Of a stretch of 64,000 nt of DNA, positions 1,659-55,325 are shown piece after piece (the first letter of the stretch is position 1; every line of letters starts with the position of its first letter). This stretch comes from Cinnamomum chago (taxonomy: Eukaryota > Streptophyta > Magnoliopsida > Laurales > Lauraceae). The stretch spans positions 87,566,501 to 87,630,500 of the forward strand of contig CP142454.1 in the NCBI GenBank assembly GCA_038049695.1. The letters run 5' to 3'. Made by a program: the position numbers and the translations under genes. Under the pieces are notes generated by a model that saw only the letters and a list, made by a program, of their open reading frames with translations, had not been told where the DNA came from and ran no database searches.

Positions 1659-2033
1659 TAGAGAAATAGCTCTCTTGGTCCGGATGGTTTTTCTGGAGTA
1701 TTCTTTACCAGCTGTTGGGATATTGTTGGTAAAGATGTTTCCTCTGCGGTCTTACACTTCTTCTCTACATGTAGACTTTTGAGATCCACAAATGCTTATT
1801 TCCTTACTCTCATCTCCAAAACAACCTCCCCTTTATCCTTTGCTAACTTTCATCCTATTAGCCTTCTAAACTTTTCTTACAAAGTTATTTCTAAAATTTT
1901 GGCTAAAAGGCTTGCGGTCATCCTTCCCCTCCTTATATCTAAGCACCAAGTAGCTTTTGTTAAAGGCAGATCTATTCATCACCATGTTACTTTAGCCCTT
2001 GAGCTCTTCCAAAAATTGAACTCCAAAGATAGA
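1659..2033 (+). mobile_element. 5'-truncated L1 LINE, part 1 (start of reverse transcriptase)
   Basis: Translation shows the N-terminal reverse transcriptase landmarks of plant L1 ORF2: GPDGFSG, then FHPISLLNFSYKVISKILA, then QVAFVKGRSIHHH. It stops abruptly at 2033 where a CACTA element is inserted, and the same reading resumes at 9268. The 5' edge falls exactly where the GPDGF motif begins, so endonuclease and ORF1 are missing, as is usual for truncated L1 copies. A diverged target duplication of about 19 bp (1640-1658 and 11301-11319, about 16 of 19 matching) brackets the whole L1. It is related to, but clearly different from, the L1 at 24820-30613. Confidence 0.85.
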
Positions 2034-2049
2034 CACTACTAGAAAAAAG

Positions 2050-2700
2050 GGTTTTTATATCGGTTGCAAAAACTGCCCTATATCGGTTTTTCATATAACC
2101 GATATAATATCTTCAGTCAAGGTTTTTTATATCGGTTAATATTTTTTTATATCGGTCAATTTTTTTTTATATCGGTTGCACAGGTTCCGACATAATAATC
2201 TCTATATATAATATCGGTTAGAAAAATATGTGATATTAATTTCAATATTTTATATCGGTTATTATAAAACCGATATTAAATATACATATTTTGTATCGGT
2301 TGTATACATATATTTTATATCGGTTATTATAAAACCGATATGATATACACATATTTTATATCGGTTGTATACACATATTTTATATCAGTTATTATGGAAC
2401 CGATATTATATATACATATTTTATATCGGTTATTATGAAACCGATATTATATACCCAATGATTTTACATCGGTCTTCAAATCCCTTAATCGCCCGCGCGG
2501 GCTCAGTGGTTCTTTCCCTCCTTTTTATTTTTCCTTCCCTCCCTTTTTCAGCACGTCCTGCGGCTAACCGCCAGTGCACCTGCGGCTAACCGCCAGTTAT
2601 ATATACATATTTTATATAGGTTATTATGAAACCGATATTATATACACATATTTTATATCGGTTGTATACATATATTTTATATCGGGTATTATAAAATCGA
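2050..2700. repeat. Left subterminal repeat array of the CACTA element (ATATCGGTT)
   Basis: The motif TATATCGGTT and its complement occur many times, often as pairs such as TATATCGGTTATTATAAAACCGATAT, interrupted at 2490-2600 by a GC-rich insert with two GCGGCTAACCGCCAG units. The role is inferred from CACTA biology: binding sites for the element-encoded transposase, normally also targets of methylation. Confidence 0.85.
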
Positions 2701-3835
2701 TATGATATACATCTCTTTTTTTATATCGGTTTCACCTTTCATTTCTTTCTCTCCCGCCAGCGAAATCCTTATTTCCCTCTCCTCACTCATCTCATTTCTT
2801 TCTCTCCCGCCAGTGAAATCCTTATTTCTCTCTCCTCACTCATCTCTTTCTCTCCCGCCTCCATCGCCCTCTCCCTCTTCTCACTCATTTCGTTCTCTCT
2901 CTTCACTCATTTCTTTCTCTCCCGCCTCCATCACCCTTTCCCTATCTCCTCTATCTCTCCCTCCCTCTCCAGACCTCTCCAAGTTCACCACACGACCCCT
3001 CCACTGCACGACGACCACAGTAGCACCGCCAAGCGCGCGCAGCAGCCCCCTCGCGCTTTCATCTTCCTCCTCGCGTCGCGGACCCCTCCCCTGCACCAGG
3101 TACACGCCTCCTCTTCCTGCACTCACGCACCATTCCCCCTCTCCTCTCTCTTTCTTCTCTGTTCTCTCTCTCATTCGTTCCCCATCAATCTGTTTCCTCT
3201 CTGTCTGCTCTTCTCCCTCCCTTCATCTCTTCTTCCTCCCCTGTCTCCCCTCGCCTGCGCTTGCTGCAGTGGCTACCTGCACACCACTCCCTCGCTCCCT
3301 CGGTTCTCTCTCTCTCTCTCCCTCCCTCTCTTCTCTTCTTCCTCCCATGTTCCTCTCCCTCTCCCCTGCTTCCTCCTCTGTTCCGCCCTACGCCCACCTG
3401 CACACCACTCCCTCTCTCCCTCAGTCCTCTCTCTTTCTTCGTCTCTTCTCTTCTTCCTCCCCTGTTCCTCTCCTCTCCTTTGCCCTGCGCAACCGCCCTT
3501 TCCTCCTCCTCCTCTTCTTTCTTTTTTCCTTATCCTTCTCCCTTATCTCCCTTTCCCCTCTCTCATTCCACGCTCCCAGCAGCCCCCTCTCATTTTTGTC
3601 TCCCTTCTCCACTCATTCATCTCATCTCCCATTTGATTTTCTATTCTCTCTTTCTTCCTTTCTTTATTTCCTCCTCATTCACTCTTCCCAGCAACGTCAC
3701 TGAGCACCCACCCATTTCACTCTCTCTCTCTCTGTTTCTTTCTCTCATTCTTTCTGATTTCTTTCCTCCCCCTCTGTGCCCAATGGACCACCGAGCACCA
3801 TCACCACCACTATTCCAGTGGGCCATCGATTAAGT
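2700..3835 (+). other. 1.1-kb polypyrimidine (C/T-rich) block inside the CACTA element
   Basis: The plus strand is almost entirely C and T, made of diverged tandem copies of pieces such as TTTCTTTCTCTCCCGCC. It gives spurious long open frames (Ser/Pro/Leu-rich on plus, Arg/Glu-rich on minus) that are not credible proteins. It resembles an expanded 5' leader of a plant gene and directly precedes the captured ABCG exon, so it may be co-captured leader sequence; that is inference. Confidence 0.6.
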
Positions 3836-4019
3836 GGGCCCCACGATCTTCATTATCCCTAATTTCAAGCTTCACTGTTTTGTAAGCTTCTTCCATTTGA
3901 TTAGGTTTTGTTAATTGGGGGTTTTCCATTAATTAGTGTTAGATGAGTTTTTTAGCATCTTAGATTGTGATCTGTAGAGTTATTTATGTGGGTTTGTTTC
4001 TAATTCATAGGTTTTGGGC

Positions 4020-4212
4020 ATTTTGAGCATTTTGGATTTCCTCACCCAAAGCATTTTGGAGCCTGACTACGCTTATGGGTCCATCCGGCTCAGGGAAGTA
4101 TAGGACTCTACGCTGCTTGATGCTCTCGCTGGTCGCCTGGCCACCAATGCATTTCTCTCAGGAACCGTTCTCCTTAATGGAAGGAAGGCAAAGCTGTCAT
4201 TTGGGACTGCGG
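4020..4212 (+). pseudogene. Captured exon fragment of an ABCG half-transporter (nucleotide-binding domain, Walker A)
   Basis: One frame reads MGPSGSGK, the Walker A motif of ABCG (WBC) transporters. After a short frame-breaking insertion another frame continues [20 protein letters not shown] and [14 protein letters not shown], the sequence that follows Walker A in the plant ABCG11/12/15 group (cuticular lipid exporters of the plasma membrane). The fragment ends at a consensus splice donor (GCG|GTGAGT, 4212/4213), so it was taken from genomic DNA rather than from a processed transcript. It cannot encode a working transporter. Confidence 0.85.
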
Positions 4213-4262
4213 TGAGTAGTTTGATCTTACATGAATATGTCTTCTTTTCTCTGTTTTCCACT

Positions 4263-4456
4263 TAGTAAAACAGAGGAAGTTTATTCTTATGGTTTCAACT
4301 GGTTCATGGTTCACCTTCATCCTGGATTTACGCATTACCTGTTCTTCGTGCTATGCCTGTATGCAAGTGTTATTGTGGTTGAAAGCTTGATGATGGCCAT
4401 AGCCAGTATTATTCCTAACTTCCTCATGGGAATTATCATTGGAGCAGGGATCCAGG
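4263..4456 (+). pseudogene. Captured exon fragment of the same ABCG transporter type (transmembrane domain)
   Basis: The frame reads FMVHLHPGFTHYLFFVLCLY, then ASVIVVESLMMAIASIIPNF and LMGIIIGAGIQ, which is the TM domain of ABCG11/12/15-like proteins. It is preceded by an acceptor-like TTCCACTTAG and followed by a donor-like CAG|GTTAGC. In a real ABCG gene this segment lies hundreds of residues after Walker A, so intervening exons were lost during or after capture. The frame is still open, suggesting capture was not very old. Confidence 0.85.
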
Positions 4457-6467
4457 TTAGCTCTACCCACTCCTGAAACTGCATTCAATATTCTGAATAA
4501 ATGTTATAATGAGAATAGAGCCCAACTTCAATGATGGAATCTATGTAGCTAGGAATTTGTTCTAAAAAAATAGAAAGTTCTTCATGTTGGTCCTGAATTA
4601 GTGGCTTATAAAATTATGGTTACAAATAAAAAAACAGAAATGCTATGGATCAAAGAAAAATTGGTGTGGCATGTACAGAGGAAAGAAATGCAGAGACTAT
4701 ACATTTGAAGCAACACAGAACCTTATTTGGATATATGGATCTCCTTATCTATATACATTTATCTATACCATCTGATTGCCCAAACTCAATTTCATGTATC
4801 ACATCTTTAGTGTTAACATGTGTACCCACATTTAACACATGGTTCCCAATGTTGTCACTTCATATCTACATAGAATACATGGTTACCATGTGATAGTTAT
4901 CTGGTGCTAATCCTAGTCTTGAGATAATGTGATTCCAAACTGTGTTCATGGTCCAGGTCAAATGTAAAAGTGTTCCACATCTGTGATCTCATGACAACTT
5001 CCACTATCTTCATAGTATTCACCACAGATTTGGTTATGGAATCACATTAACTCATTGCCAGCTGATGAATCCATGGCCAATAGATTTCATACAATGAAAA
5101 TCTAAAATAAATTAATTCATGATTCAGATCGGTTAATCATTTGGATTACACATCTCATTGATGAATCTCATTGATCAGTCAGTTGAAAATTAGAGTGAGA
5201 TGAGTTCTAAAATAATTTGTAATCAAACAATTCTCATATATCAAAAAAGGACCCACAGATTCCAAGTTTCCAAATCATCATGACCAATAGAAATTTTGGT
5301 TTTTCTAAATATCTGACGAGTTGGTGTTGATATAAGATATTTTGTGTACTTATAAAAACATGGCAAATGTGTACATTCATTTACACATAAGGGCCTCATA
5401 TTGTTGCTTTCAATGGAGCTTAATTTCCACTTGTTCAAAATAATATAATTGAGTGAGATTATTGATTGACAGCGATCATGCTCTTTTTTGTTACTCTTTT
5501 TGTACAATTCGCAGTATTATCTTGTTTCCTATAGCGAAAACTCTCTATACTACCGAGTGGTTTATACATTTTGTGGATGGTTTTGTTCTCTCTGATCTAC
5601 ACTCAACTTGGGATTAATATCTTCGGTAAGTTCCATCTTCATCTCTTCATGTAAAAAATCAGTCATTCATTTCATGTCCAAATATCAATTTTCCATTCTT
5701 CTCTATCATCTTTCAGTTGTTGGTTGGGGTGTGATGCCTACCTCTATTTAATGGGAATGAATACCTTGCCTTCATTATCTTAACAATAGATAATAGGCGG
5801 GACTGATCTGGTTTTACCTAGACAATTTGATGCACTCATCTCAAGTAGTGACAGCTGATGGACAACAAAAGCTCTATTGCTGATGAGCAGCAAAAGGTTG
5901 TTGGTAGCTAGCTACATCATTCCCATTTGTTGCTACATATCACTTGAATAACCATGTAGCACATATGACTTAGATGGTGATTTGAGTTGTAGGTAAATCA
6001 CCTGTTCTATTTTATTACACCACAGTTGGGTTTCAAACGCTCAACATTGTTGACTTGATGTAGGAATGTCAACTGAATATAGGGATGAAAACAAATGCTC
6101 AAAAGTCTCAAATCCATGTCAAGGCTCACTGTTGGGCAGCCTATTGAGAATAGAGTGCTCTGGCTTATGATCACACTCAAAGTCAAGATGAACAAAAGCA
6201 CGCTCAACTTTAGGAAGTTCCCCATCTTTATTTGCAAGGACTCTCCAGTGGCATGAGTTCTCAATTCCCTATATTTTAGGCATTGTCATTGGTGTGGTAT
6301 GCTTTGTGTAGTGTGATTCTTGTGCAAACAAATCTGAGTCATTATTTGACCAACTCTTAAATTTTGAACTTAATTGGCAAAGATTGATGATTCTTTCTTA
6401 ACTACTTAGATTCTCATGAACTTAGGGAGATTCTCATGTTGGGCTCGTCTTTGCTTGTCTTTCTTAA

Positions 6468-6592
6468 CTCCAGTACAGTTATTGCCCATGCTGGTGATGG
6501 AAACTTTCATACAGTGATACTGTTTGATCCAAACCGAGAAGAACAACGTCGGGAAGTTGCGAGACTTAACCAATTTATGGTCCTAGCTTGTG
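6468..6592 (+). pseudogene. Captured exon fragment of mitochondrial D-lactate dehydrogenase (FAD-linked oxidase C-terminal domain)
   Basis: The reading TVIAHAGDGNFHTVILFDPN followed by REEQRREVARLNQFMV matches the C-terminal FAD-oxidase domain of plant D-LDH (cytochrome), which oxidises D-lactate from the methylglyoxal pathway in mitochondria. The HAGDGNFH motif is the metal/substrate-binding signature of the family. An acceptor-like CTTAACTCCAG lies just upstream, consistent with genomic capture. Only about 40 codons are present. It is a second, unrelated donor gene in the same CACTA element. Confidence 0.85.
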
Positions 6593-6604
6593 TTGTCAAT
6601 GGAA

Positions 6605-6740
6605 GGTATTGGTTATTTGATCAGTTGGTTGATGTCTTTACTAAGGCACTAGAAAATTCCGTCCCCAAGGTATAATGAGCAAGTTGGGTGTGATTGACAT
6701 CTGTGCACCAGCTTGAGTGGGAGTGCAGAATATGAGCTTT
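6605..6740 (+). mobile_element. Small Copia retrotransposon fragment (end of the polyprotein), fossil
   Basis: The translation resembles the last residues of a Ty1/Copia RNase H region (DQLVDVFTKAL, then SKLGVIDICAP). It directly abuts the D-LDH fragment inside the CACTA element, so it was either captured with it or inserted next to it. Only a broken terminal piece remains. Confidence 0.55.
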
Positions 6741-7662
6741 ATGGAGTATAAATGTATTCATGGTGGTGTTGAATACCATAGAATTTATCATATCAAAAGA
6801 GTTATTATTGTGGTGGATTGGATTCGGTTCTATCTTCAAGGCATCATGATATAATTGTAATCTTAAGAGATATATTTACTTGTTTCCCCTTGATATTTAA
6901 TGTGAGTTACAACTATGTTGTCTTATGTCTGGTTTCTTAATTTCAAATCTTACTGTTCATGTGAAATGTTTATGCCATTTAATTTGTATTGAAGTAGTTG
7001 TTCAGTTTATCGTATCCCATCATTGTTTTTAGCTGACAAACCATTGTGTTCTAGATATATGCTTTCTGCTTCTGTATGTTGGCTGCCCACCACTTTAGAA
7101 ATCCTGTTGTGACTTTTCTCTTATCATGCAACAGTATTGTTGAGTTGTAAACTGCATCATGGCATGTGGGGGGGAATTTATTGTCATCCATTTTCCACTT
7201 GAAAAGAATGGGGGTTTTGCAAGAGATATCTCTTGTTCCATATGATTTAGCTGATCTTTCAGATGAGGGAAGCTTCTTGGTCTTACAGATATGCTACCTA
7301 GTATTACCTTAGTTTACTGCTTTCCTCTCTATCTACTGTTGTTTAGCAACACATCCCTATACTTCATAACATTCTTTCCATCTAATGCCTGATGGTGATC
7401 ACAATTCACATCCAACATCTCTCTCACATGCTTCTCTCCTGAATCCTGTGATCTGGTTATAATCTTACTGATGGAGATGGTGCACGTAAGTGAGTACGGA
7501 ATCATAAATTGGATTATTCAAGTCATGTCAGTTAAGCATGTTGTTATGCTTATATCTTCTTATCTAACATCTAAATCAAAAAGTGGTCAACATGACTTTT
7601 GTGCATCAGTGAGAGAGATTGATTTTTGGTTTTGGAATCAGGTCGATCTGACTTCAGGTTTT

Positions 7663-8268
7663 GAAGTTATGAATTTTCTACTAGAGACAACTCTGCTTCA
7701 CTCAGGTTGCTATTTTTCTGTGACCAGTCAGCTTCAAGCTGATTTTACATTAATTTCCATTCAATCTGGGTTAAATCTCAAAACATGAAAGTTGTATCCC
7801 TCTGATAAATCTTTCATTTGGATCAAGAATCATGTTGTTTCGAGTTCAGAAGAGGAAGTTATGAATTTTCTACTGGAGACAACTCTGCTTCACTCAGGTT
7901 GCTCTTTTTCTGTGACCAGTCAGCTTCAAGGTGATTTTACACTACTTTACATTCAATCTGGGTTAAATCTCAAAACATAAAAGTTGTATCCCTCTGATAA
8001 ATATTTTATTTTGATCAAGAATCATGTTGTTTTGAGTTCAGAAGAGGAAGTTATGAATTTTATACTGGAGACAACTCTGCTTCACTCAGGTTGCTGTTTT
8101 TCTGTGATCAGTCAGCTTCAAGGTGATTTTACACTACTTTCCATTCAATCTGGGTTAAATATCAAAACATGAAAGTTGTAGCCCTCTGATAAATATTTCA
8201 TTTGGATCAAGAATCATGTTGTTTCGAGTTCAGAAGAGGAAGTTATGAATTTTCTACTGGAGACAAAT
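7663..8268. repeat. Tandem array, 192-bp period, just over three copies
   Basis: The word GAAGTTATGAATTTTCTACT recurs with start positions 7663, 7855, 8047 and 8239, exactly 192 bases apart, and the units are over 90% alike by eye. Because 192 is divisible by three, the same frame recurs and gives repeated 62-residue open frames (FSVTSQLQGDFTLL...), each ending in a stop. They are a by-product of the repeat rather than a gene. The array lies between the captured gene fragments and the right subterminal region of the CACTA element. Confidence 0.9.
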
Positions 8269-8447
8269 TCTGCCATTGTAAGTAGACTACTGACAAATTC
8301 TGCCATTCTACTGAAGTTATGAATTTTCATTTGGAAGTTATGTTTTTATACTGAAATCCATTTCCATGTTGATGCCATTGTAGTAGTCTACATATATGTG
8401 GGATTGGAACCCATCATATTTGTGAGCTATAATTCAAAGAAAGACTA

Positions 8448-8785
8448 TATTGGCGGCTAGCCCTTTTAGACCAGCGGCTAGCCGCTTTCAAATAACGGTC
8501 AGAAAATTCAAATCAGGATGGCTCACGGCTAGCCGCAGGAAAAGTTGGGGGCTAGCCGTGAGGCAACCGCAGGGGTGACCGCAAGATGGTTCTGAAAAAA
8601 CTGGTCTCTAGAAATCAAACCGTAATCCCACGGTTAGCACTGCGGCTAACCGTAGGTGCACTGGCGGTTAGCCGCAGGAAGCACAGAAAATCATCCTGAA
8701 AAAAAAATGCTTACTGGAAAGCTGACCGTGGGTCTAACGGCTAGCCCCCTTGCAAAGGGCGGCTAGCCGCCAGGTGACCGTAAGG
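8448..8785. repeat. Palindrome-rich GGCTAGCC block of the CACTA element
   Basis: About ten copies of CGGCTAGCCG-like palindromes or CGGTTAGCCGC variants lie in 340 bases. Related units (GCGGCTAACCGCCAG) sit at 2560-2597 near the other end in opposite orientation. The arrangement is unusual next to the ordinary ATATCGGTT array and suggests a second class of subterminal binding site. Confidence 0.7.
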
Positions 8786-8839
8786 TCACCTGACCCTTTC
8801 TAGAAGGACTATTTATAAAAAAAAATGCATATATAATAT

Positions 8840-9245
8840 TAAATCGGTTGCAGAACAAACGATATAATACAATCCCAAAAAACCGATATAACAAAGCCCT
8901 TTATAACCGATATTATAAATATTTTTCTATCGGTTTCACTCTTTTTTATATCGGTTTTATAGTAATGTATGCTATAATTTTAGTTTCAAAACACATCAGT
9001 TCTCCGAAAACCGATATTATAAATATTTTTTATATCGGTTTCATTTTTTTTATATCGGTTTTATAGTAATATGTGTTATAATTTCAGGTTTAAAAGACAT
9101 CAGTTGTCCAAAAACCGATATAAAATAATACACATATTATATCGGTTATAGTTATTTATTATATCCGGGGTACTTATATCGGTTTGAAGTTTACTGAAAA
9201 ACCGATATAATAGGTCTTTTATATCGGTTTTTAGCCGATATAAAA
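8840..9245. repeat. Right subterminal repeat array of the CACTA element (AACCGATAT)
   Basis: The same 9-base motif as the left array occurs about 18 times in both orientations, including two duplicated blocks with ACCGATATTATAAATATTTT. It ends in the terminal inverted repeat at 9264. Confidence 0.85.
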
Positions 9246-9267
9246 ACCCTTTTTTCTAGTAGTGAGA

Positions 9268-25014: not shown

Positions 25015-28000
25015 TTACACGATAGTGACTATACTCATGGAGACAAAGAGAGCACTGAGATGGTAAATGACAAAAGGAGAAGATATCTGCTTCAAGGAGA
25101 AAGAGATAGCTTCTGTGAGGAGAGCTTGGATGGAGTGGAGAGAGGGCCTATGATTGTCAAAGATTGCCTCATTTCGAGCCTTCCAAAGGTGATAGAGAAC
25201 GGTAATGAAGATGGCTGCCATGAATTTGGAACCTTTGGCGTCACTGTCCTTGGAGAGGGTCTTCCAAATAGAAGAGGCAGAGAAGATAAACAGAGGAGGA
25301 GCCCCTGCAGCTTGAAGGAGCCAAGACCATGTGGCTATTGCTAGATCACAGGAGAAGAAGAGATGACCCACTGAGTCTTCTGCAGCACTGCAAAAGATGC
25401 ATCTAGATGCAAGGGAGAAACCCAAACGCTTCAGCCAAGATTCAGTGGGGATTTTGTTGTGCATCAAACGCCATCCAAAGCAGTTAACTATGTGGGGAGA
25501 GATGTTGTTCCATATCAGCTTGGGCCAGGGGAGAGGCTGAGCTCTGTGCCTGATTGTTTGCCACGCTGAACTCATGGAGAGCTTACCATCTGGGGAGCCT
25601 CTCCAGCTGAGGGTATCACTGATGGCCAGGCTGGGAGTGAGATCCTTAAGGAGATGGAGAAGGTGCTGATGAACCATTGTTGGCAGGAACTCCGGAGTGA
25701 CCCAGGTACCAGCTTGGAAGAGGGTCGTTAGTCCCTCGGAAATTGAAACCCAGGGAAACAAGTAGATATAGGATCTCCTGCAGTCCATAAGTCGTGCCAA
25801 ACATTGATACCCTGACCATTGCCAAAAATCCCTAACCATTGCCAAAAATCCAGGAGCTACCTTGGTGGATGAAAGACGCCAAACGACGAATTTTCTTCCA
25901 AATGCACGAGCCATAGATGGAATTGTCCGAGCTCCAAATGGGACGAAATTTAAAGTAACGGTTCTTAAACCAGATGGACCAAAGAGACTTTGAAGTTGCA
26001 GCTTGCCAACCAAGCTTAATAAAAGAAGTTGTGTTCACTTCTGCTATTTTTCTTATACCCAGGCCACCTTCGGCCTTAGGAAGAGTAACTATTGCCCAGC
26101 TGACAAAGTTAAGCTTGTGTTTGAGAGCATTACCTGACCAGAGGAATTGCCTCATGAGTCCCTCAATCTCCTTGCAAATAGAAGCAGGCAGGGGGAGAGT
26201 GGCTGCAAGGTGAATTGGGAGGCTAGAAATGACATGTTTGATGAGAGTAAAACGGCCTGCAAAAGACAAAGTTTTGGCCTTCCAAGCAGAGAGCTTGGCC
26301 TGAACGGCATCCAGCAAAGGGAGAAAGTGGTTCCTTTTAGGGGACCCAAAGCAAATCGGGGAACCCAGGTATTTGAGGTGAGATGTTACTTCTTGGATGC
26401 CTAGAATGGAGCTGATTCTTCTCTTCCTTCTCGAGCTGCATTTGCCAAGGAACAGTTGACTCTTCTGGAGGTTGAAGAATTGGCCTGATGTAGACTGATA
26501 GATCTCCAGGAGGTCTTGAAGAATAAGAACACTAGAGGCTGCCCCTTTCATGAATAAGAGGATGTCATCAGCATATAATAAGTGGCAGGGGGTGGCAGAG
26601 ACCTTAGACAGAGGGAAGAGAAGGCCTTGATTTTGGAGGTTAGTCAAATGAAGACTCAAGATTTCTTCTGCTAGAATGAAAAGATAAGGGGACAGGGGGT
26701 CACCCTGTCTGAGGCCATAGGAGGAACTAAAAAAACCATGGGTCATTCTGTTAAGAAGCACAGAGCCTTTAGAAGTGCAAATGCACTCTTTTATCAGGGA
26801 GATCCACGCATCAGAGAAATTAAAGAACTGAAGAGCTGTAAAAAGAAATGACCAGTTCAACTTATCAAAGGCTTTTGAGATGTCAAACTTTAGGCAGAAG
26901 GAGCCCCTGTTAAACTTGGAATTCAGTTTCTGGTAGAGTTCAAAAGCCAAGGCCGAGTGGTGCTGTATGTTTCTGCCTTTGATGAAAGCAGCTTGGTGGG
27001 GAGAAATCAGCTTAGGAATAATAGACGAGAGCCTGGTGGAGAGAATTTTGGAGAGGATTTTGTAAGAGAAATTCAACAAGCTTATTGGTCTGAAGTCTGT
27101 TAAGGATTTGGGAGATTTAGACTTAGGAATTAAGGCTAGGAAGAAGGTGTTGGAAGCTCTGTGTATCCTTCTGGATAGGAAGAAGTGCTACACAGCAGAA
27201 GAAACAGTTTGGCCTATGATACTCCAAGATGCAGTGAAGAAGGCTCCATTAAAACCATCCGGGCCAGGGGAGCTGTTCTTATTGAGGGAGAAGACAGCAA
27301 CTTTTATCTCTTCTGAAGAGGGGACAGAAGTGAGGAAAGAGTTCTCTGAGGCTGAAACCTTTGGGCTGTTAATTTGGAAAAAGGAGGGGATGGCTTGGCT
27401 TGCTTGGGACTTGAAGAGATTGGAGAAGTAGTCGACTGCATGGGTTTGGATGATATCTTGATCCTCTGTAATAGAGCCATTAATGGAAATTTGGTGAATG
27501 GAGTTGAAAGAGCTCCTGGCCTTAGCTGATAAGTGAAAGAACTTGGTATTCTGGTCGCCCTCTTTCAGCCAATTAATTCTGGATCTTTGTTTCCAGTGAA
27601 TTTCTTGGGCAGAGAGGGCTTCATGAAGCTCTGTTTTGGCTGACTAGAGGGCTGCTCTGGAGAGGTCCGAGGGGGCTGAGTCATGGAGCAGTTGGCGATC
27701 AAGGACTTTGTCCTCTGCAGCTTTGATATTCTGGGTGAGGTGGCCATAAGTAGACTTACTCCAAAGTCTTAGGGACTGTTTGAGGGCTTTGAGTTTTTTG
27801 GCTAGAGTGAATTGAGGATCACCTACTATAGGTAAGTCCCAGCTGGATTTGACTGTATCAAGGAAGGAAGGGTGGAGCAGCCATTTCTTTTCAAATTTGA
27901 AAGGAGTGTTAGAGAGGGGAGCCTGGGTGTGGTGGGTAAGGAGGATCGGGTTGTGGTCAGAAGAAATTCTGGGGAGGTGGTTGATTATAGGGTCACGGAA

Positions 28001-29109
28001 ATGGCTAAGCCAGGTAGAATTGACAAGCGCTCTGTCAAGCCTAGTAGCCACATAGGAGGAGCCTTGTCTATTGTTAGACCAGGTGAACCTATTTCCAACG
28101 AATTTGGTATCGTGGAGGCCTGCTTGCAGTACATCAGATTGGAAAGCTTTAAGGGAAGAGGCAGTAGGGTGACAGATGCTGAGCTTGTCAGCATGGTTGG
28201 GGGTTGCATTGAAGTCTCCAATAAAGCACCAGGGCAGAGTGGAAGAGGAGGAATCAATGAGGACTGCCCAGAGGTCCTTTCTAAGAGAGGGGTTAGTGGA
28301 ACCGTAAACACCAGTGATGACAGTAGGGAAACCTGAGGAGCTACTGTGGAGGAACATGGAAAGATGCTGAGAAGAGAAATCTTTCACTGAGATGGAGAGG
28401 TGGTGTGTGGATTTTGAAAGGCACCAGAGATTTGAAGATGTGGGGGAAGCTGAGGGACCATTAGAGTGGAGGGTGTCAAAACCAAACCTGTTCCAGCTAA
28501 GGCCATTGGTTCAGAAATGAAAATGATGTCGGGAGAGTGTTCGCGAATCATATTAGCCAAAGCACGTTGTGTGGGACGGTTAGCAATGCCCCTACAATTC
28601 CAATAGAAGACTTTTAACATGGGGAAGAATTTGGGGGGGGTGTTCTTGCCTCTAGATCTCCTTGTGATCGGGCCAGAAGAGGTAACAGGGACAGAAGAAG
28701 GTTTCTCTTTTCTGTGTTTACCTCTGGTATTAGTGGTGGGAGGAGGGTAGGCTACTGTGGAATCCAAGGGGGGGTTATGGGAGATAGTATGAAAGCTGGG
28801 AGGATCAAGAGCATCTGAGCTAGAGCAGAGGGAACTTGGATCATCTAGGGGTTGAGCTGGGGGGAAGGTTGGAACTGAAGGTTCAGGGGGGGACTCAAAG
28901 CTTGGGGGCAGTTCTGTGGAGGAGTTGCCTTCAGAGAAAGCTTGGAGGTTGCGGCCATATATTGAGGGGTTATCTACTGGGTCTAGGAAGGAGCAGTGGT
29001 CTATGATAGAAAAAGGATTAGAGAGATCAGTGGATGGTGTTGGTATTTTCTGGAGAATGGCTGTTACAACATCATAGGGGAGGTCATTAATGGAGGGGGG
29101 GTTGGCCAT
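25015..29109 (-). CDS. L1 ORF2 (endonuclease, reverse transcriptase, zf-RVT), interrupted
   Basis: From ATG 29109 comes an N-terminal extension, then the AP-type endonuclease (VFYWNCRGIANRPTQ, later GDFNATPNHADKL and SDHNPIL). Next is the reverse transcriptase (SSPGPDGFNGAFF, FRPISLLNFSYKILSKIL, GLRQGDPLSPYLFILAEE, YADDILLFMK), and finally the zf-RVT region (about 25330-25560, WKLIWNN-like and FFSCDLAIATW). Frame changes lie near 28385 and between 25830 and 26010, with stops near 27645 and 27200, so about four lesions. A 19-base tandem duplication (CCATTGCCAAAAATCC repeated at about 25817 and 25837) coincides with the second frame change. The enzyme would nick target DNA and copy the RNA in place. 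Confidence 0.85.
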
Positions 29110-29183
29110 CTGAATGGTATCCTTTTGGCTCAGAACAGAGGATGGGTTGGGGGGTGGAAGACTCTGGCTAATGGTGGATTTGG

Positions 29184-30590
29184 CTAGGGGACAAGGGGGG
29201 CGGAGGAAAGACTAGGGGCAGGGGAGGGAGGGAAGGAGAGTGAGACCACAGGAGGAGGAGGGCCAGCGAGAATTGCACTAGGGACAGGGGCTACTGTCTG
29301 GCAATCTGTGTTAGAGATTAAATCTCTAGAGGAGTCCAGGGGGACTAAATGAGGGGTTGGGGGACAAAAGGAAAAGGTAGAAGGACTGAGATTAAGAGAA
29401 GAGGGGGCAAGGAGCTGTGAACTGGTTTTGGAGGAAACTATATCTGAGGAGGAAGGGATTCTAGCAGAGGTTTTCCTGGAGAGGGGACAAGTAGCCTGGC
29501 TGTGGCCTGGGGAGAGGCATAAGGAACAAGGGCAATGTTCATAGTCCACTGTAATTTCCTGTTCCCCTTCCCCTTGGAAGTTAACCAAGATGGAGGGGGG
29601 CTTAGGTTTAGAGAGATCTATGTTAACTAGAACTCTGGCAAATGAGAGAATACGCTGAGCCATTGTATAGTTGTCAAGCTTAATAGGCTGCCCTATGGAG
29701 TTGGCTAGGGAGAGGATGATGTTTTGACTCCAGCAGTGGTAAGGCAACCCAGACAGTCTAATCTAGACTGGGGCTATGGAAGGCCAGACTGTTTCATCTT
29801 GCCCAGGAGACCAAGGTAAGAAGAAGACTTTTTTCTTATCTATTGAAAGGGGAGAGAGGCTGAGGATGGTGGCTTTGTCAGCTGGGGAGTTGAACCGAAA
29901 GATAAAGTAGCCTTTGTTGGTGAGGGAGACCATACAGGGTCTGGATAGAGACCAGAGCTTGGCTTTTTCTTCCATCCATTCAAGAGAGGGGCGTCTACCA
30001 ACAAATCTACCAATAACAGCAAAAGAGAAAGACTCTTTGCTAGAGTTAAGCATAGAAAGAGGAATGGTTAGAGATGGCTTACCATTGTTCCACGTTGGAA
30101 CAGGGAGAGACGCAGGGGGGCAGGGAAGAAAGGGGATTTGAGGCGCAGAGAAAAGATTTGCAAACGATTGTTGGAGAGGAGGGTGGGGAGCGATGACTGG
30201 AGCGCAAATCTGGGACACGAGCCTAGCAGAGTTGGCTACTGGGGCTGAAGAAACTGGCTTTGTAGAAGGGAAGGCAGAAGGAGTCAGAGGGGAGATTTGG
30301 GTAGGGAGAGGAGGAAAATTGTGAGGCTGAAAGGAGAGCGATTGAAAACAAGTAGGCTGAGGCTGAACAGAGGAGGGGGAGGGGAGGAGGGGATGGAGGG
30401 CTGGCAGAGCCAGAGGGGCAGAAGGCTGAGGCTGAACAATGGAGGGGGAGGGGAGGAGGGGATGGAGAGCTGGCAGAACCAGAGGCTGGGCAGGGATGGC
30501 AGTCGGAGGTGGAAGGAAGGGCAGTGGTTGGCCTGTGGAGTTGGTCGGGGAAAGTTGGTGGGTTTGGGCGGGAAGGGGAGACAAGGACAT
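29184..30590 (-). CDS. L1 ORF1 (DUF4283 plus CCHC zinc knuckle)
   Basis: Starting at ATG 30590 (MSLSPLPAQ), the N-terminal third is Pro/Ser/Gln-rich. A DUF4283-type domain follows (around FAVIGRFVGRRPSLEWMEEK, GYFIFRFNSPADKATIL and LPWSPGQ), then a CCHC knuckle CSLCLSPGHSQATC and a Pro/Ser-rich tail. In plant L1s this protein coats the element RNA. About 469 codons. One in-frame TAG at 29763-29765 stands where family members normally have tryptophan before RLSGLPYHCW, so the copy cannot make full-length ORF1p without suppression. Two near-identical LPALHPLLPSPS units mark a duplication in the proline-rich part. Confidence 0.85.
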
Positions 30591-37019: not shown

Positions 37020-38045
37020 ATATAGGGAACTATTTTTATCGTATGTACCAAATATATTGATAATATTTTCTTTTTTTTCAATACAAAGTAGGAATCAAAC
37101 GTAAACTAAAAATGGCAAATAAATAGAGAACTATTTTTTTAATTAATCCAGCACTGTGATCGGATAGAAAGCAAGGGAGCAATCCCGCAAAAGTCCTTCT
37201 GACCTGTCGCTCTTCATTAGCATGAAACGACATTCACCCACTCACTAGCCTGGTACAGCTGGCCATTATAAAAGTCATGTATCTGCATTGATAGGGGGTT
37301 ACACTTACATGGCAACCACTCAATTGCATTTAATGGCAGCTGGAGTAAGGCAAATTATTTTTGCTTATATTGCAATAGATAAAAATTATATTCGTCGAGC
37401 TTTTTTTTATGCCACGTAACTTTAACACCTATCAATAGATCCACGTGGGGGCGGAGAAAAGAAAAAGTCAGTTTCTCTTTCTCCGCCCCTCTTCTGTCCC
37501 CCATGTGGAGATCCCTGTTTGGTCCAAATAGGGATCGGGGATCCTCTTCCAGATATACATGACTTTCACAACGCTTTACCAGTATAGGCGTAGTAAGTGG
37601 GTGAAAGTGGCTTCATGCAGATGAAGAGGTACATAGGTGAGAATGACCTCTGTGGCATTGCCTTACTTGCTTCCTATCGGATCCCAGTGCAAGATTAATT
37701 AAAAAAAAATAGTTCCCTATTTGTTCGTCTTTTCTAGTTTATGTTTTATTCCTACTTTTTGTGTGAGAAAAATGAAAATATTATCAATAAATCTTGGTAC
37801 TTACCAAAAAGAATCACTACACCAAAAATCGGAAATTGGAACGGAAAAGCGTTCCTAATCCTCCCGTTCCTAATCCGTTAAACCGTTCCAATTTCCGTTC
37901 CAATTTGGATTAGGAACGGTTGGTACCAAATTGGAACGGAAATTGGAACGGTTTAACGAATTAGGAACGGGAGGATTAGGAACGCTTTTCCGTTCCAATT
38001 TTCGATTTTTGGTGTAGTGAATAGTTCCCTATTTGTGGCATAAAT
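37020..38045. mobile_element. Foldback element with arms of about 250-300 bp
   Basis: Left arm (37020-37260) and right arm (37590-38045) are inverted copies. Matches include ATAGGGAACTATTTTT, TTGATAATATTTTC, GTAGGAATNAAAC, GATCNGATAGNAAGCAAG and TTCACCCAC. The right arm was lengthened by a later hairpin CACTA MITE (37815-38019). A further direct copy of part of the left arm lies at 36960-37030. A Mutator-like foldback is possible, but the termini were not resolved. Confidence 0.7.
37815..38019. mobile_element. 205-bp CACTA-type hairpin MITE
   Basis: It starts CACTACACCAAAAATCG and ends with the inverse, GATTTTTGGTGTAGTG, flanked by AAT on both sides (37812-37814, 38020-38022). The two halves are complementary almost throughout, built from GGAACGG/CCGTTCC units, so a transcript would fold into a near-perfect 95-bp stem. 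Confidence 0.95.
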
Positions 38046-48614: not shown

Positions 48615-50070
48615 ATATATAATAACTAATAAAACAGAAACGGCCTGTGCTAAGCCCGGGCCTAAAAAATAAAAATATTTTTTAATTTCATATTTTCTTT
48701 AAAATATTATTGATAAATAAAATAAATATATAAATATATTATTTCAAAAAATGGCTTGGGTTGTCCCAACAGTACCGATTTAGGAAAAGAAGCAATGGAG
48801 AAATGCATAGAGGAAATCTTTTCTTAATAACCCAAAATAATGTGTAACATGAACCGAAATAATAATAAATAACATATATTATCCATTCACGTGCGCATTT
48901 CATGAGGTTGAATCACTAAAAATCAATAAATGAACCTCAAGAAAACACAATGGCAAATGCATCAAGCAAATTCGATATATCGAGTTTTAGATATATTATT
49001 CATCTATGAAAAATTCTTTCAAAGGAGAAAAAGCTTTTCTCAATCTTCTTATTCGTGGAAGAAAAAAGAATAAAAAAAAAACATAATTGATGAAGTTTTT
49101 GCCACTAAACATTAATGGTTATCGATGACATTTGGAATTTAATATATATAACTCCAACTCCTAACGATACCTCAAAGAAAAAATTAGCATGATCAATAAT
49201 ATGCATTCGCAAATGCATATTATTTTCTTTATGGGCCTATTTGTTTCCCCATTGATCATCCAACTCCTTTGGTCCTCCTTGAATTAAGGTTAATTTCTAT
49301 GGATCAATGACATGTGGTGGGCCACTTCAAGTATACTTCAGTAAAGTAAAATCTCTCATGTGGGGTTTAAGGATTTATTATAAGATTTTCATCGGTACAA
49401 ATCTCAAAGCTTCATGCATATTATTGGGTTATGAGTTTTTTATGTGATTAATTACATATGGTGGGCCACTTCAATTAGGCTTCATGCCTTTGTGAAATAG
49501 TAATCTCACATGTGGGGCCTGTAGTGCAAGCCGTGTAGCCAATTAGAAATCAAAAGGCGTGGAAACTAACAACAATTGCATACTAATAATTATGTGAGGC
49601 CCACCTTGTGAATCTCAATCACATGTATGGTCCATATGCTCCTAGTGATTGCAATTGTGCATCAGTGTGGGCCTAGCATAGCAGTATGTAATATGCATGA
49701 GAATCCATCACGTGGGTAAATCCAACAGTTTACAAAGTTAATACTAAAATCATAATGATAAAAGGATTGGTTAGACAGATTTAAAGATGGATGAAGATTA
49801 AGAGAGTGATTTGAGAATTAAGATAAGAAGATAAAATAGAAAAGTTAGGAAAAGAGAGATTTTAGGGGAAGTTAGAAGGATTTTAGAAATGTAGGTTTAT
49901 GAAACCATAGTCTTAATTTAAATGGAGACATTTAGGGAGGAGAGTTGGGAAGAGTAATGGCCCACATTAAACTCAAAGTTCTGTGCGTTTTTATAAGTAT
50001 TTTTCTTAAAGGAGGACTCACCTAGTGATGATGTGGCTCCCTCCACAACCCACCTCCCCATTTACTTTAA
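48615..50070. repeat. Unit A of a tandemly duplicated 1.4-kb repeat (empty copy)
   Basis: It begins near ATATATAATAACTAATAAAAC with AAGCCCGGGCCT and ends with CCACCTCCCCATTTACTTTA followed by a TA-rich stretch. It aligns to unit B along its whole length at high identity. It contains the intact sequence GATATATTATTCATCTATG at 48990-49007, the uninterrupted version of the site where unit B has a solo LTR. Confidence 0.85.
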
Positions 50071-53000
50071 TATATATAACTAGTAACACAGGCCCGGGCT
50101 TAGAAAAAAATAAAAATATTTTTTAATCTAATATTTTCTTTAGAATATTATTGATAAATAAAATAAATATATAAATATATTATTTCAAAAAATGGCTTGG
50201 GTCGTCCCAACAGTACCGATTTAGGAAAAGAAACAATAGAGAAATGAATGGAGAAAATCTTTTCTTAATAACCCAAAATAATGTGTAACATGAATCGATA
50301 AGAAAAATAAAAATAATAATAAATAGCATAAGGTTGAATCACTAAAAATCAATAAATGAACCTCAAGAAAACACAATGGCAAATGCATTAACCAAAATCA
50401 ATATATTGAGTTTTAGATATATTATTCTGTTAGTTTTGATGGTCTCAATACCAAGTATATGATGTAATAAATTGATTAATTTATTTATTTATCAATATAA
50501 TTCATGCTTTTCCTTTCATAAGATGAATGGTGTTTTATATACTTGCACATAACCAATACAAAAGACATAATGGCTCATGAGATGAACCGGAGTCCATGAG
50601 TATACTAGATGTAATACATGTGTATGGATGAGATCCACATACAGGAGACATGTATTGCAAATCTTATACTCAAATATCTTCACAACCAGTGATGAGATTA
50701 GACATCTCATCTGACAAGGTTGCAGCGCCTTGATCACTATGAGATAGTGTGATTTGTCTCAATCATCGGAATGTAAGATTCCGGATCATGGTGTTGGTAC
50801 ATTGGATGTATTGAAGGACCATGAAAAGCACCTTATATACACTGTCTTTATTTCAAGGTCCGCTCTCATAATTCCCTAGCAATAGGCTCATAATCCCGAG
50901 ACATTAATGAACTCAAGTTTCTATCTATTCATTTGCTGTGAGTCATCAATGAGTGAGGCCAATTGTAGGTCAACACCTCGGTGATTTGGGTACGTGGTAG
51001 TAGAGCTGTGGGAACATTCAATGGTCAAGATGGAATCTATCTTTAATATCCCCTTGTGCCAATTAATGGATTTATCATTGGTAAGTGCGCACCCATTCCA
51101 GTTAAGAGTTAATTTGATCGGTACCAAATGATCATTATAATTAATTGGGGCTCAAGGATAATAAGATATGGATCTAGTTTGGTGGACATGTCCAATTAAT
51201 CCATGGATATAGATGGAGGGGCCTACTTGTGGTACTGTGGAAGTTTAGGGTCTTCATTGTAATATATTTCTAAGACTGGAGTGCAATTGCATTTATATAG
51301 TGGAGTTATTTGCAATTAACTGTGGGCCCGGATTGTACATGAGATGTGGGGTCGCGTGTCCCAGTTGGAGCCAGCTTTCTAAGGAATCCCTAGTGGTCCC
51401 CACGCTAGCCCAAGATATTAGAAAGATACTAATTATAGTAGAACTCTAAAAGGAAATAGAAAGTTACTATTTCTATTTGAAGTGAGACTTCTAATAGTGG
51501 TAGTACGTTACTAATTATTAATGGAAGTGAGATTTCTATTTTAATTAGAAAAGGAGAAAGCAAGTAATTGTTGTGGAAGTAAGACTTCTATTTCAATTAG
51601 AGGAGGTTGCTTAAGTGCTATAAAAGAGGAAAAGGGGCTTGGACGTCCAACACTTAATTCTAATAGTGATTCACGCCCATTCCACTCAAGAGTGCAAAAG
51701 TTGCACTTCTCTCTTCCTCTCTCTCTTCTAGTTTCTCTTCTAGTTTCCTTTAGGGTTTTTCTCTTGAAGATTCCACCATCTTCTTGAGAAAGAGAATCTG
51801 ATACGGGTCATAGCGTGGAAGATCAAAGGGTGTAGGAGATTCTGATTTGATTAATTGAAAGCGTTCATCATCAAAGAAAGAATTCAAATCCTCCATTAGA
51901 GCACAACAAAGCTCCAAAGGTATATCTACATCCTTGTATGTTGTGGATTTCGTGGTTGCATGTTTATGTGCTATTTTCTATCTTCTAAATAGTATTTGTT
52001 GCTGTATATGGCTATGAGATTGAGGGATTGCATCATGGATTGGGTTTGTTGCCTTCTAGATAGTTGATCCCTGCATCAAGTGGGTCAAAAGTTTTGAAAC
52101 CTATCTGAATGACCCACCTATTTTCCAACATATTCATCTATGAAAAATTCTTTCAAAGAAGAAAAAAAAATTCAATCTTCTTATTCGTGGAAAAAAAAGA
52201 AAAAAAAAACATAACTGATGAAGTTTTTGCTACTAAACATTAATGATAATCGATAACATTTGGAATTTAATATATATATAACTCCAACTCTTAGCAATGC
52301 CTCAAAGAAGAAATTAGCATGATCAATAATATACATTCGCAAATGCATATTATTTTCTCTTTGGGTCTATTTGTTTCCCCATTGATCATCCAACTCCCTT
52401 GGTCCTCCTTGAATCAAGGTTAATTTCTATTGATCAATGGCATGTGTGGCATGTGGTGGGCCACTTCAAATATACTTCAAGTCTTTGCGAAGTAAAATCT
52501 CTCATATGGGACTTAGGGATTTATTATAAGATTTCCATCGGTGAAAATCTCAGAGAGCTTCATGCATATCATTGGGCTATGAGTTTTTTATGTGATTAAT
52601 GGCATATGGTGGGCCACTTCAATTAGACTTCTTGCCTTTGTGAAGTAGCAATCTCACATGTGAGGCCTGTAGTACAAGTCGTGTAGCCAATTAGAAACCA
52701 AAAGGCATGGAAACTAACAACAATTGCATACCAATAATTATGTGGTCCCCACCTTGTGGATTTCAATCACATTTATGGTCCACATACTCCTAGTGAATGC
52801 AGACGTGCATCAGGGTGGGCCCTGACCTGTGGTCATTTTGTCAAGTAATAAATAGCACAACAGTAAGTAATATGCATGAGAATCCATCACGTGGGTGAAT
52901 CCAACCGTTTACAAAGTTAATATTAAAATCATAATGATAAGAGGATTGGTTCAACATATTTTAGGATAGATGAAGTTTAGAAAGTGATTTGAGGATTAAG

Positions 53001-53175
53001 ATAAGAAGATAAAATTGAAAAGTTAAGAAAAGAGAGATTTTAGGGGAAAGTGGCCCACATTAAACCCAAAACTTTGTGTGATTTTATAATTATTTTTCTT
53101 AAAGGAGAACTCACCTATTGATGACGTGGCACTCCTTACGACCCTCCTCCCCGTTTGTTTTAATATATATATATA
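50071..53175. repeat. Unit B of the tandem duplication, interrupted by a solo LTR
   Basis: The same repeat as unit A, starting AATATATATAACTAGTAACA with GGCCCGGGCTTAG and ending CCTCCTCCCCGTTTGTTTTA followed by (TA)n. Without the LTR insert it is about 1.39 kb. Unit class is unknown; a similar 3' edge at 35406 shows that the family is dispersed. Confidence 0.85.
50428..52130 (+). mobile_element. Solo LTR, 1703 bp, with empty-site control in the neighbouring unit
   Basis: It starts TGTTAGTTTTGATGG and ends TTTTCCAACA, flanked by TATTC on both sides (50423-50427, 52131-52135). The matching point in unit A (48997-49001) has a single TATTC. A TATA box (TATAAAA, 51619-51625) lies about 500 bases before the end. 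No internal retrotransposon sequence remains. Copia-like by its termini. It inserted after the tandem duplication, or the duplicate was lost from unit A only, which is less likely. Confidence 0.95.
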
Positions 53176-53179
53176 TATA

Positions 53180-54020
53180 TATATAATTGATGCAATATAT
53201 ATTAATTGACTAAGAATAGTTTTTTTAGAATCTTTTTAAAAAAAATGATAGCGTAGCATCCGTTTTATATCGACATTTTTTTTTAGGTTCCAACTAGGAG
53301 CGATACTACCAACATAAAGACCCATCCATCACTCCCCAATCATGTTTTTGATATCGAGGAGCCAACACCGCTCAATCACAGGTCCATTACAATGCGCATC
53401 AACACTTGAACTTGTGGATTGGGCTCAAATTTGGCACAACCCTAAACAACATCCAGATCTATGACTTACCTTTTTTGTTGCTATACGGTCTGCTGACCGT
53501 CCCATCATAAAAGCCTTATCCAAACTATTTTTTGCTATGTAAATTTATTTCTCCATTTCAATTTCTCTCGGAGCTAGCCACATGTAAGCTGCACTCGTGT
53601 GGATCTATTCTTACTACTTTTCTCCGCCCACACCTTTTTCTTGATGGGTGCATCAACCTCCATTAAAAAAACATCCTCACCCACTATAATTGATGAAAAA
53701 AAATGAATAAAATAAGGGTAGCCTACCTGATGAGCTAGATCTGGTCAGTAAATTTTCAGCCTACCAAATACAGATGGGAGACAATTCCCTAATTAAATTA
53801 AAGATTAAAGGACACAACAGACCCACCTATCCACACACACCTCCTTAACCCCTTTTTAAACCCCATTCCTCACTCCTCCACACTTTACTGTAGTCCTCAC
53901 CTGTCTCAGCCTCCCTCACACCCTGACCCAAATCAGAAAAAACACCCAACATCCATCTCATTCCAGTTTCCATCCACTTATTTCTTTCTACTGCTGCTGC
54001 TTCTTCTTCTTTCATGAGGT
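53180..54020. promoter_or_regulatory. Upstream region and leader of the RLP51-like gene
   Basis: The first 600 bases are AT-rich without recognised elements. From about 53820 the plus strand becomes strongly C/T-rich (CCTCCTTAACCCC, CACTCCTCCACACTTTACTG), as in many plant leaders. No convincing TATA box is present; the best candidate is TTTTTAAACC at 53852. (CTG)n/(CTT)n stretches lie just before the start. An out-of-frame ATG at 54014 opens a 73-codon frame overlapping the main start. Confidence 0.4.
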
Positions 54021-55325
54021 ATGGAAGAATTCAAATCAAAACCCACACTACTGCTTATCTTGCTCCCACTCCTCTTATCATCCACCCTCCACCCCATCTC
54101 CTCCCTCTCTCCCTCTCCTTCTCCTGCATCAGAGCCTTCTCTCCCATCTCCTTCTTCTTCTCCGTCGCCGTCATCGACCCTCGACCCCAAGCAGCTGACG
54201 GCGCTGAAATCCATCAACTTCCCCACCGGCCGTGACCCCTGCCTCCAGCCCTCCCCCCACAACGCCACCCTCTGCGACTCTTCCAAGCCCTTCCGCCACC
54301 TCATCTCCCTCCGCCTCTCCAACTGCTCCGCCGACGTCCTCCTCTCCTCCACTGCTCTCAACTCCCTCTCCACCCTCCAATCCCTCTCCTTCCTCAACTG
54401 CCCCATCCCCCCTTTCCGCCTCCCCACAGATCTCTCCTCCAACCTCCGCTCCTTCTCCTGCGTCTCCAGCCTCCGCCGCCTCACCGGCGTCTGGCTCAGC
54501 CACCTCTATAACCTCACTGTGCTCACAGTCTCCGACGTCCCCATCTCCGCCAGCGGCCCCTCCATCATCCTCTCCAACATGAACAAGATCACCTCCTTAA
54601 CCATCTCCGGCGCCAATCTCACAGGTTCTCTCCCAAGAAAATGGCATCCCAAACTCACCCACATTGATTTCTCCCACAACAAGCTCAAAGGGAGAGTACC
54701 CATTTCAGTCACCGAACTCCCCAATCTGAAATTCTTGAATCTCAGCTCAAATCAGCTTCTGGGTCAGATTCCAGACACTTTTGGGGACCTCATTTCTCTT
54801 CAAAACTTGTCTTTATCATCCAATTTGATGTCAGGTCCTATACCTGATTCAATGGCCTCAATCCCCTCTTTGGCTCACCTTGATCTGAGCTCGAATCAGT
54901 TCAATGGATCAGTTCCCAACTTCCTATCTGAGATGAAGGATTTGAAGTATCTAAATCTGGAGAACAACAATTTTCAGGGAGTGATCCCTTTCAATGGGAG
55001 TACTATAAAAAGATTTGCTGTTTTTAAGGTAGGGGGTAACAGCAATCTCTGCTACAACCATTCTACAGTTTCTTCCATGCTCAAACTTGGCATTGCACCC
55101 TGCGATAAGGATGGTTTTCCGGTGCAGCCGCCGCGGGGCAAATCATCGTCATCAGGTTCATCGGAGGATGCCAATAGTGATTCCGGCGACGACTCCAGCG
55201 ACGAAAAGCCGAAGGAGAATCACCGGCATGGCCCAAACAAGGTGGTTTTGGGACTGGCAATTGGGCTTTCTTCCATTGTCTTTCTCATTATCTTTCTTGT
55301 CCTTCTTGCAAAGTGGTGTGGATAA
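54021..55325 (+). CDS. RLP51: LRR receptor-like protein, RLP51/SNC2 type, intact and intronless
   Basis: This protein of 434 residues is close to the 431 of Arabidopsis RLP51 (SNC2), a plasma-membrane receptor-like protein in basal immunity. Residues 1-29 form a signal peptide; 30-52 are Ser/Pro-rich. Residues 53-95 form the N-terminal cap ([28 protein letters not shown]). About ten leucine-rich repeats run from 90 to 325 (for example [48 protein letters not shown]), with several N-glycosylation sequons. A C-terminal cap follows ([16 protein letters not shown]), then an acidic Ser-rich linker (372-405). The single membrane helix, about 408-430 ([20 protein letters not shown]), has a GxxxG motif, and the tail is KWCG. 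The GxxxG motif is the site altered in the auto-immune snc2-1D allele. No kinase is present, so it must signal through partners. The start at 54021 has G at -3 and +4. The 5' half is very C-rich. Confidence 0.93.

Follow-up and report, generated by a model that had tools for sequence, protein, structure and literature searches.

A CACTA transposon inserted in a LINE of Cinnamomum chago probably carries genomic exon-plus-intron pieces of ABCG and D-lactate dehydrogenase genes

Analysis of a 64-kb stretch of Cinnamomum chago DNA, referred to as the window throughout, revealed that positions 2034-9264 are a genuine CACTA-superfamily transposon of 7.2 kb, bounded by inverted arms that start with CACTA. 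Judged from its sequence, we consider it most probable, at roughly 0.85, that this is a non-autonomous Pack-CACTA (transduplicating) element which would carry genomic exon-plus-intron pieces of ABCG and D-lactate dehydrogenase (D-LDH) genes between its ends. The features of the element are collected in Table 1.

Table 1. Features of the CACTA element and its immediate flanks, with positions counted from the first nucleotide of the window
Feature	Positions	Strand	Remarks
Target site duplication, left copy AGA, 3 bp	2031..2033	none	
Left terminal inverted repeat	2034..2070	+	begins CACTACTAGAAAAAAGGG; arms 37 nt, 92% complementary
Left subterminal region	2034..2740	+	exact copies: ATATCGGTT n = 11, AACCGATAT n = 6
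Pyrimidine-rich leader-like stretch	2740..3783	+	78-89% C+T per 250-nt block from 2784
ABCG nucleotide-binding (Walker A) exon fragment	4063..4211	+	ABC_tran; frame broken; no acceptor at 5' homology edge
Putative splice donor GTGAGT	4212..4217	+	closes nucleotide-binding piece; 1.2% of window GTs score as high
ABCG transmembrane exon fragment	4288..4455	+	ABC2_membrane positions 115-169 of 211
Putative splice donor GTTAGC	4456..4461	+	closes transmembrane piece; 0.3% of window GTs score as high; best + strand donor of interior
Exon-like stretch, 111 nt	5515..5625	+	picked by eye; good acceptor, then second-best + strand donor of interior
D-LDH exon fragment	6474..6605	+	FAD-oxidase_C positions 158-198 of 248; acceptor AG 6472-6473; candidate donor 6606
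Presumed Copia-type polyprotein end (DQLVDVFTKAL...)	6619..6720, right limit approximate	+	13 nt past D-LDH piece
192-bp tandem repeat	7663..8266	+	3.1 copies, 94% matches
Right subterminal region	8836..9264	+	exact copies: ATATCGGTT n = 6, AACCGATAT n = 5
Right terminal inverted repeat	9228..9264	-	arms 37 nt, 92% complementary
Target site duplication, right copy AGA	9265..9267	none	

The element combines the features of the CACTA (EnSpm) superfamily, namely inverted ends starting with CACTA, a 3-bp target duplication and dense direct and inverted subterminal repeats. Exact occurrences of the subterminal 9-mers ATATCGGTT (n = 17) and AACCGATAT (n = 11) in the 64-kb window fell without exception (28 of 28) into the element ends, where they are present in both orientations, and none was found in 2741-8440 or outside the element; with one mismatch allowed, the 9-mers were seen at one place in the interior and at 18 places outside. 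A search of the whole window with the 14-nt end, tolerating up to two mismatches, returned three places (both ends and 55839) at a chance expectation of 0.89, and no second copy of the element was found in the 64 kb. The element also holds a second, GC-rich repeat set (CGGCTAGCCG, CGGCTAACCG and CGGTTAGCCG) at 8454-8769 and 2561-2592, of which no exact copy exists elsewhere in the window, as well as a 49-nt inverted pair (2545-2593 with 8642-8690, 86%).

The element splits the reverse transcriptase of a LINE, for which Pfam RVT_1 was matched on both sides (left E = 1.1e-6, just under the cut-off; right E = 5.1e-17). Removal in silico of the element together with one AGA yielded a single open frame of 312 codons across the junction, and this empty site aligned without gaps to another LINE within the window (25835-27187, minus strand), with 162 of 277 residues identical. 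Because the empty site reads through and aligns ungapped to a second LINE, the ends of the element are fixed. The limits proposed in a preliminary description of this DNA, which had already called 2034-9264 a CACTA element, were hence borne out by the inverted arms, the AGA on either side and the precise insertion into the LINE. The other LINE occupies 25835-29762 on the minus strand and comprises reverse transcriptase, endonuclease-like and DUF4283 parts.

Within these ends, homology searches recovered the two ABCG segments, from the Walker A and the transmembrane regions, that had been claimed beforehand, both with Pfam scores below the curated cut-offs. The nucleotide-binding piece matched ABC_tran at E = 1.1e-3 and 20 bits (curated cut-off 25) when two frames were bridged by X, the frame changing within the Walker A stretch. 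In the PDB, the piece matched ABCG16 at E = 1.8e-5 and was outscored by two designed repeat proteins; the designed repeat proteins leading the PDB lists were treated as chance, and the short second half of the piece, searched by itself against the PDB, retrieved nothing but designed repeat proteins and one defensin. Extending the query upstream left the 5' edge at 4063 in Pfam and shifted it by no more than one residue in the PDB alignments, while the upstream stretch gave no Pfam match in the second frame. The transmembrane piece matched Pfam ABC2_membrane at E = 4.9e-5 and 23.4 bits when trimmed, the curated cut-off of 26.9 not being reached, and at E = 8.4e-5 when the open frame was used; it had no match in the PDB up to E = 10, and it is presumably close to plant ABCG11. 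In viral contigs, 36 pattern matches to the transmembrane piece were obtained, none of them confirmed as a relative. Among 214 pattern matches in bacterial and archaeal genomes, the one relative was rejected as spurious, since its match falls in a different frame and spans the end of a cyanobacterial CHASE2/CHAT reading frame.

The D-LDH segment of the preliminary description was likewise found, with a FAD-oxidase_C match (E = 8.9e-7, 29.3 bits) over the curated cut-off of 21.2 and a PDB match to D-lactate dehydrogenase at E = 5.6e-5. Reading the piece by eye against plant D-LDH, we assume a frame slip near its end. The adjacent Copia remnant can be upheld in part: a FTKAL motif, the sole such motif found in the window, is read from 6619, but the remnant has no Pfam support and its presumed family assignment follows the C-termini typical of Copia. 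The exon-like stretch at 5515-5625 had no Pfam match in three frames and is possibly a third captured gene. All pieces of the cargo are oriented on the + strand, the identified ones lie within 2.7 kb, and the frames of the gene pieces are broken; the broken frames, the exon-like stretch and the acceptor at the D-LDH edge had not been part of the earlier account.

To describe the borders of these pieces, donors and acceptors were scored with matrices derived from generic plant frequencies, candidate sites having been chosen by eye before scoring, and the edges of the transmembrane and D-LDH homologies were taken from Pfam independently of any splice site. The 308 GTs on the + strand of the interior were headed by donors 4456, 5626 and 4212, with the D-LDH candidate 6606 in ninth place; donor 5626 has no associated homology. 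The ABC2_membrane match ended at nt 4452, one residue or 3 nt short of the exon end at 4455, an edge unable to overrun far because the frame extends only six residues beyond donor 4456. At the D-LDH piece, the FAD-oxidase_C match started at nt 6472, 2 nt before the exon start at 6474, and the PDB match at 6469; the acceptor there (AG 6472-6473) is fair, with 4.6% of window AGs scoring as high. In the interior, 1.2% of positions have a donor with a score of at least 6.9 no more than 3 nt away. Transmembrane donor 4456 and D-LDH acceptor 6473 were thereby confirmed as predicted splice sites at homology edges. Since comparable donors were present in all nine further blocks of 5.7 kb that were tested (9265-60565), and the second and third donors of the interior minus strand even surpassed those of the + strand (8.23 and 8.12 versus 7.77 and 7.73), the donor scores alone are not special.

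The remaining ABCG borders are less sharply defined. Donors and acceptors had both been claimed at the ABCG edges, of which the donor-like GTs at 4212 and 4456 were retrieved but the acceptors were not: an acceptor-like site at 4010 is strong (0.5% of window AGs score as high) but is separated by 52 nt from the first ABCG match, which begins downstream at 4063, with no homology detected in between, and the transmembrane piece offers only ordinary candidates, with an exon start at 4266 or 4274, that 12-14% of window AGs equal. The 3' edge of the nucleotide-binding piece was left unfixed by the alignments, which relative to donor 4212 stopped six residues short for ABC_tran and two short for ABCG2, and ran eight past it for ABCG1 and 14 past it for ABCG16, so that donor 4212 is to be regarded as a likely site. 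The two overrunning alignments could speak for spliced ABCG and D-LDH cDNA having been inserted into the element, and the Copia fragment only 13 nt from the D-LDH piece makes a source of reverse transcriptase imaginable. However, just 2 of the 14 residues aligned beyond this first donor are identical to ABCG16, the transmembrane match stops 3 nt short of where a strong donor puts the exon end, and 2 nt separate the start of the D-LDH match from the exon start given by an acceptor, which renders a retrocopy origin highly improbable. Because splice sites meet two homology edges that were fixed independently of splicing, the evidence appears to favour genomic DNA rather than cDNA as the source of capture. 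The proposed genomic capture of exons from two unrelated genes is therefore backed by these two edges, but not by acceptors at the edges of the ABCG pieces.

No transposase family was detected up to E = 5 when all six frames of the element were searched against Pfam with stops read as X, the families listed being VWA_CoxE (E = 2), FAD-oxidase_C (E = 2.8e-4) and no others. This search is insensitive because both ABCG pieces escaped it, and a decayed transposase remnant could have escaped it as well. The lack of a transposase match fits a presumably non-autonomous CACTA member, and the finding of coding-gene fragments inside CACTA ends, with no transposase detected by this insensitive search, corresponds to what characterizes Pack-CACTA elements.

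For the origin of the element by genomic capture, we infer the capture route, the number of events, mobilisation in trans, and transcription and splicing along the following lines. An ancestral CACTA element may have acquired genomic DNA of the plant inside its ends, consisting of parts of an ABCG half-transporter gene and a D-LDH gene, exons and introns included, and of a Copia fragment, and a transposase supplied in trans could have moved the whole 7.2 kb into the LINE by cut-and-paste, giving rise to the 3-bp duplication. If the locus were transcribed, the retained splice sites could make the pieces cassette exons, in analogy to soybean Tgm-Express1. The repeated capture events put forward earlier would be one way to assemble this cargo, and the two donor genes and the Copia fragment could also stem from one mosaic locus. 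A different order of events, in which one pre-made mosaic pseudogene locus was captured at once or separate insertions followed later, is compatible with genomic capture; the placement of the identified pieces on one strand within 2.7 kb and the mere 13 nt between the end of the D-LDH piece (6605) and the Copia motif (6619) speak for it, and we regard it as possible, if somewhat unlikely. Were it true, the number of events would change, and the nature of the element would not. As a route of capture, the fusion of two neighbouring elements has been proposed (PMC8903248, PMC13317346). Inside the element, no end remnant was found over 14 nt with up to two mismatches, and there is consequently no clear trace of this fusion route; in raw counts, 9-nt ends with up to two mismatches occur several times inside the element.

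Regulation through small RNAs is a general proposal for captured gene fragments and had also been suggested in the preliminary description; here the chimera would make small RNAs silencing the ABCG and D-LDH parent genes. Against such a regulatory module, no long inverted repeat was found in the interior, as the only inverted repeat of at least 20 nt (arms up to 1500 nt apart) has 22-nt arms that are 82% complementary and lies outside the captured exons, and the window contains no Rfam family at gathering score, so that we consider this function very unlikely. A related idea, in which the pyrimidine-rich leader would act as promoter region and the ABCG, 5515-5625 and D-LDH pieces would be spliced into a chimeric, transposon-built regulatory RNA, strikes us as quite doubtful.

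Further features were noted elsewhere in the window. A 205-bp near-perfect foldback at 37815-38019 (-171.7 kcal/mol, z = -24.8), whose ends read CACTACACCAAAAA and which is flanked by AAT on either side, resembles a palindromic MITE of the CACTA type and could be a source of hairpin RNA. At 54018-55322, a 435-codon open frame encoding leucine-rich repeats is likely a host gene, and several paired direct repeats at 48664-53171, spaced by about 1.4 kb and about 3.1 kb and 83-94% alike, suggest a local duplication.

Comparable elements have been described in other plants. Soybean Tgm-Express1, a CACTA element found in the F3H allele wp, holds both exon and intron sequence from several unrelated host genes, in that case five, and retains usable splice sites (PMC1947982), to which the candidate borders at 4456 and 6473 would correspond here. 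In contrast to the present element, which sits in a LINE, carries ABCG and D-LDH cargo and is known from sequence only, Tgm-Express1 occupies an intron within an expressed gene, and splicing of its pieces has been demonstrated (PMC1947982). The element likewise resembles the Pack-CACTA or Pack-TYPE elements of Arabidopsis, rice and maize, which combine CACTA ends and a target duplication with coding-gene pieces in place of transposase and, in maize, often draw their cargo from several loci (PMC8903248); its ends start with CACTACTAG, whereas those of Arabidopsis Pack-CACTA are given there as CACTACAA. Captured host gene fragments are also described for CACTA elements of grapevine (PMC2528002) and Chenopodium (PMC8978399), and the internal satellite arrays of the latter are comparable to the 192-bp array found here (PMC8978399), although several of the elements described there are longer and transposase-bearing, unlike this one (PMC2528002, PMC8978399). 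Viral contigs scanned for the 18-nt element end gave no match, and its first 13 nt are not printed in any of the papers searched. Literature searches for CACTA elements with ABCG or D-LDH cargo, and for CACTA capture or transduplication of an ABC transporter, gave no such case among the matches listed, judged by titles and the starts of abstracts.

Overall, the element is a clean but ordinary new instance of what has already been reported from other plants, and it opens no new mechanism. It provides a well-bounded case of a CACTA transposon shuffling exons, in which the insertion site, the target duplication and some of the splice borders can be read in one window, and it supports the view that what such elements move are genomic pieces, splice signals included, and not cDNA.
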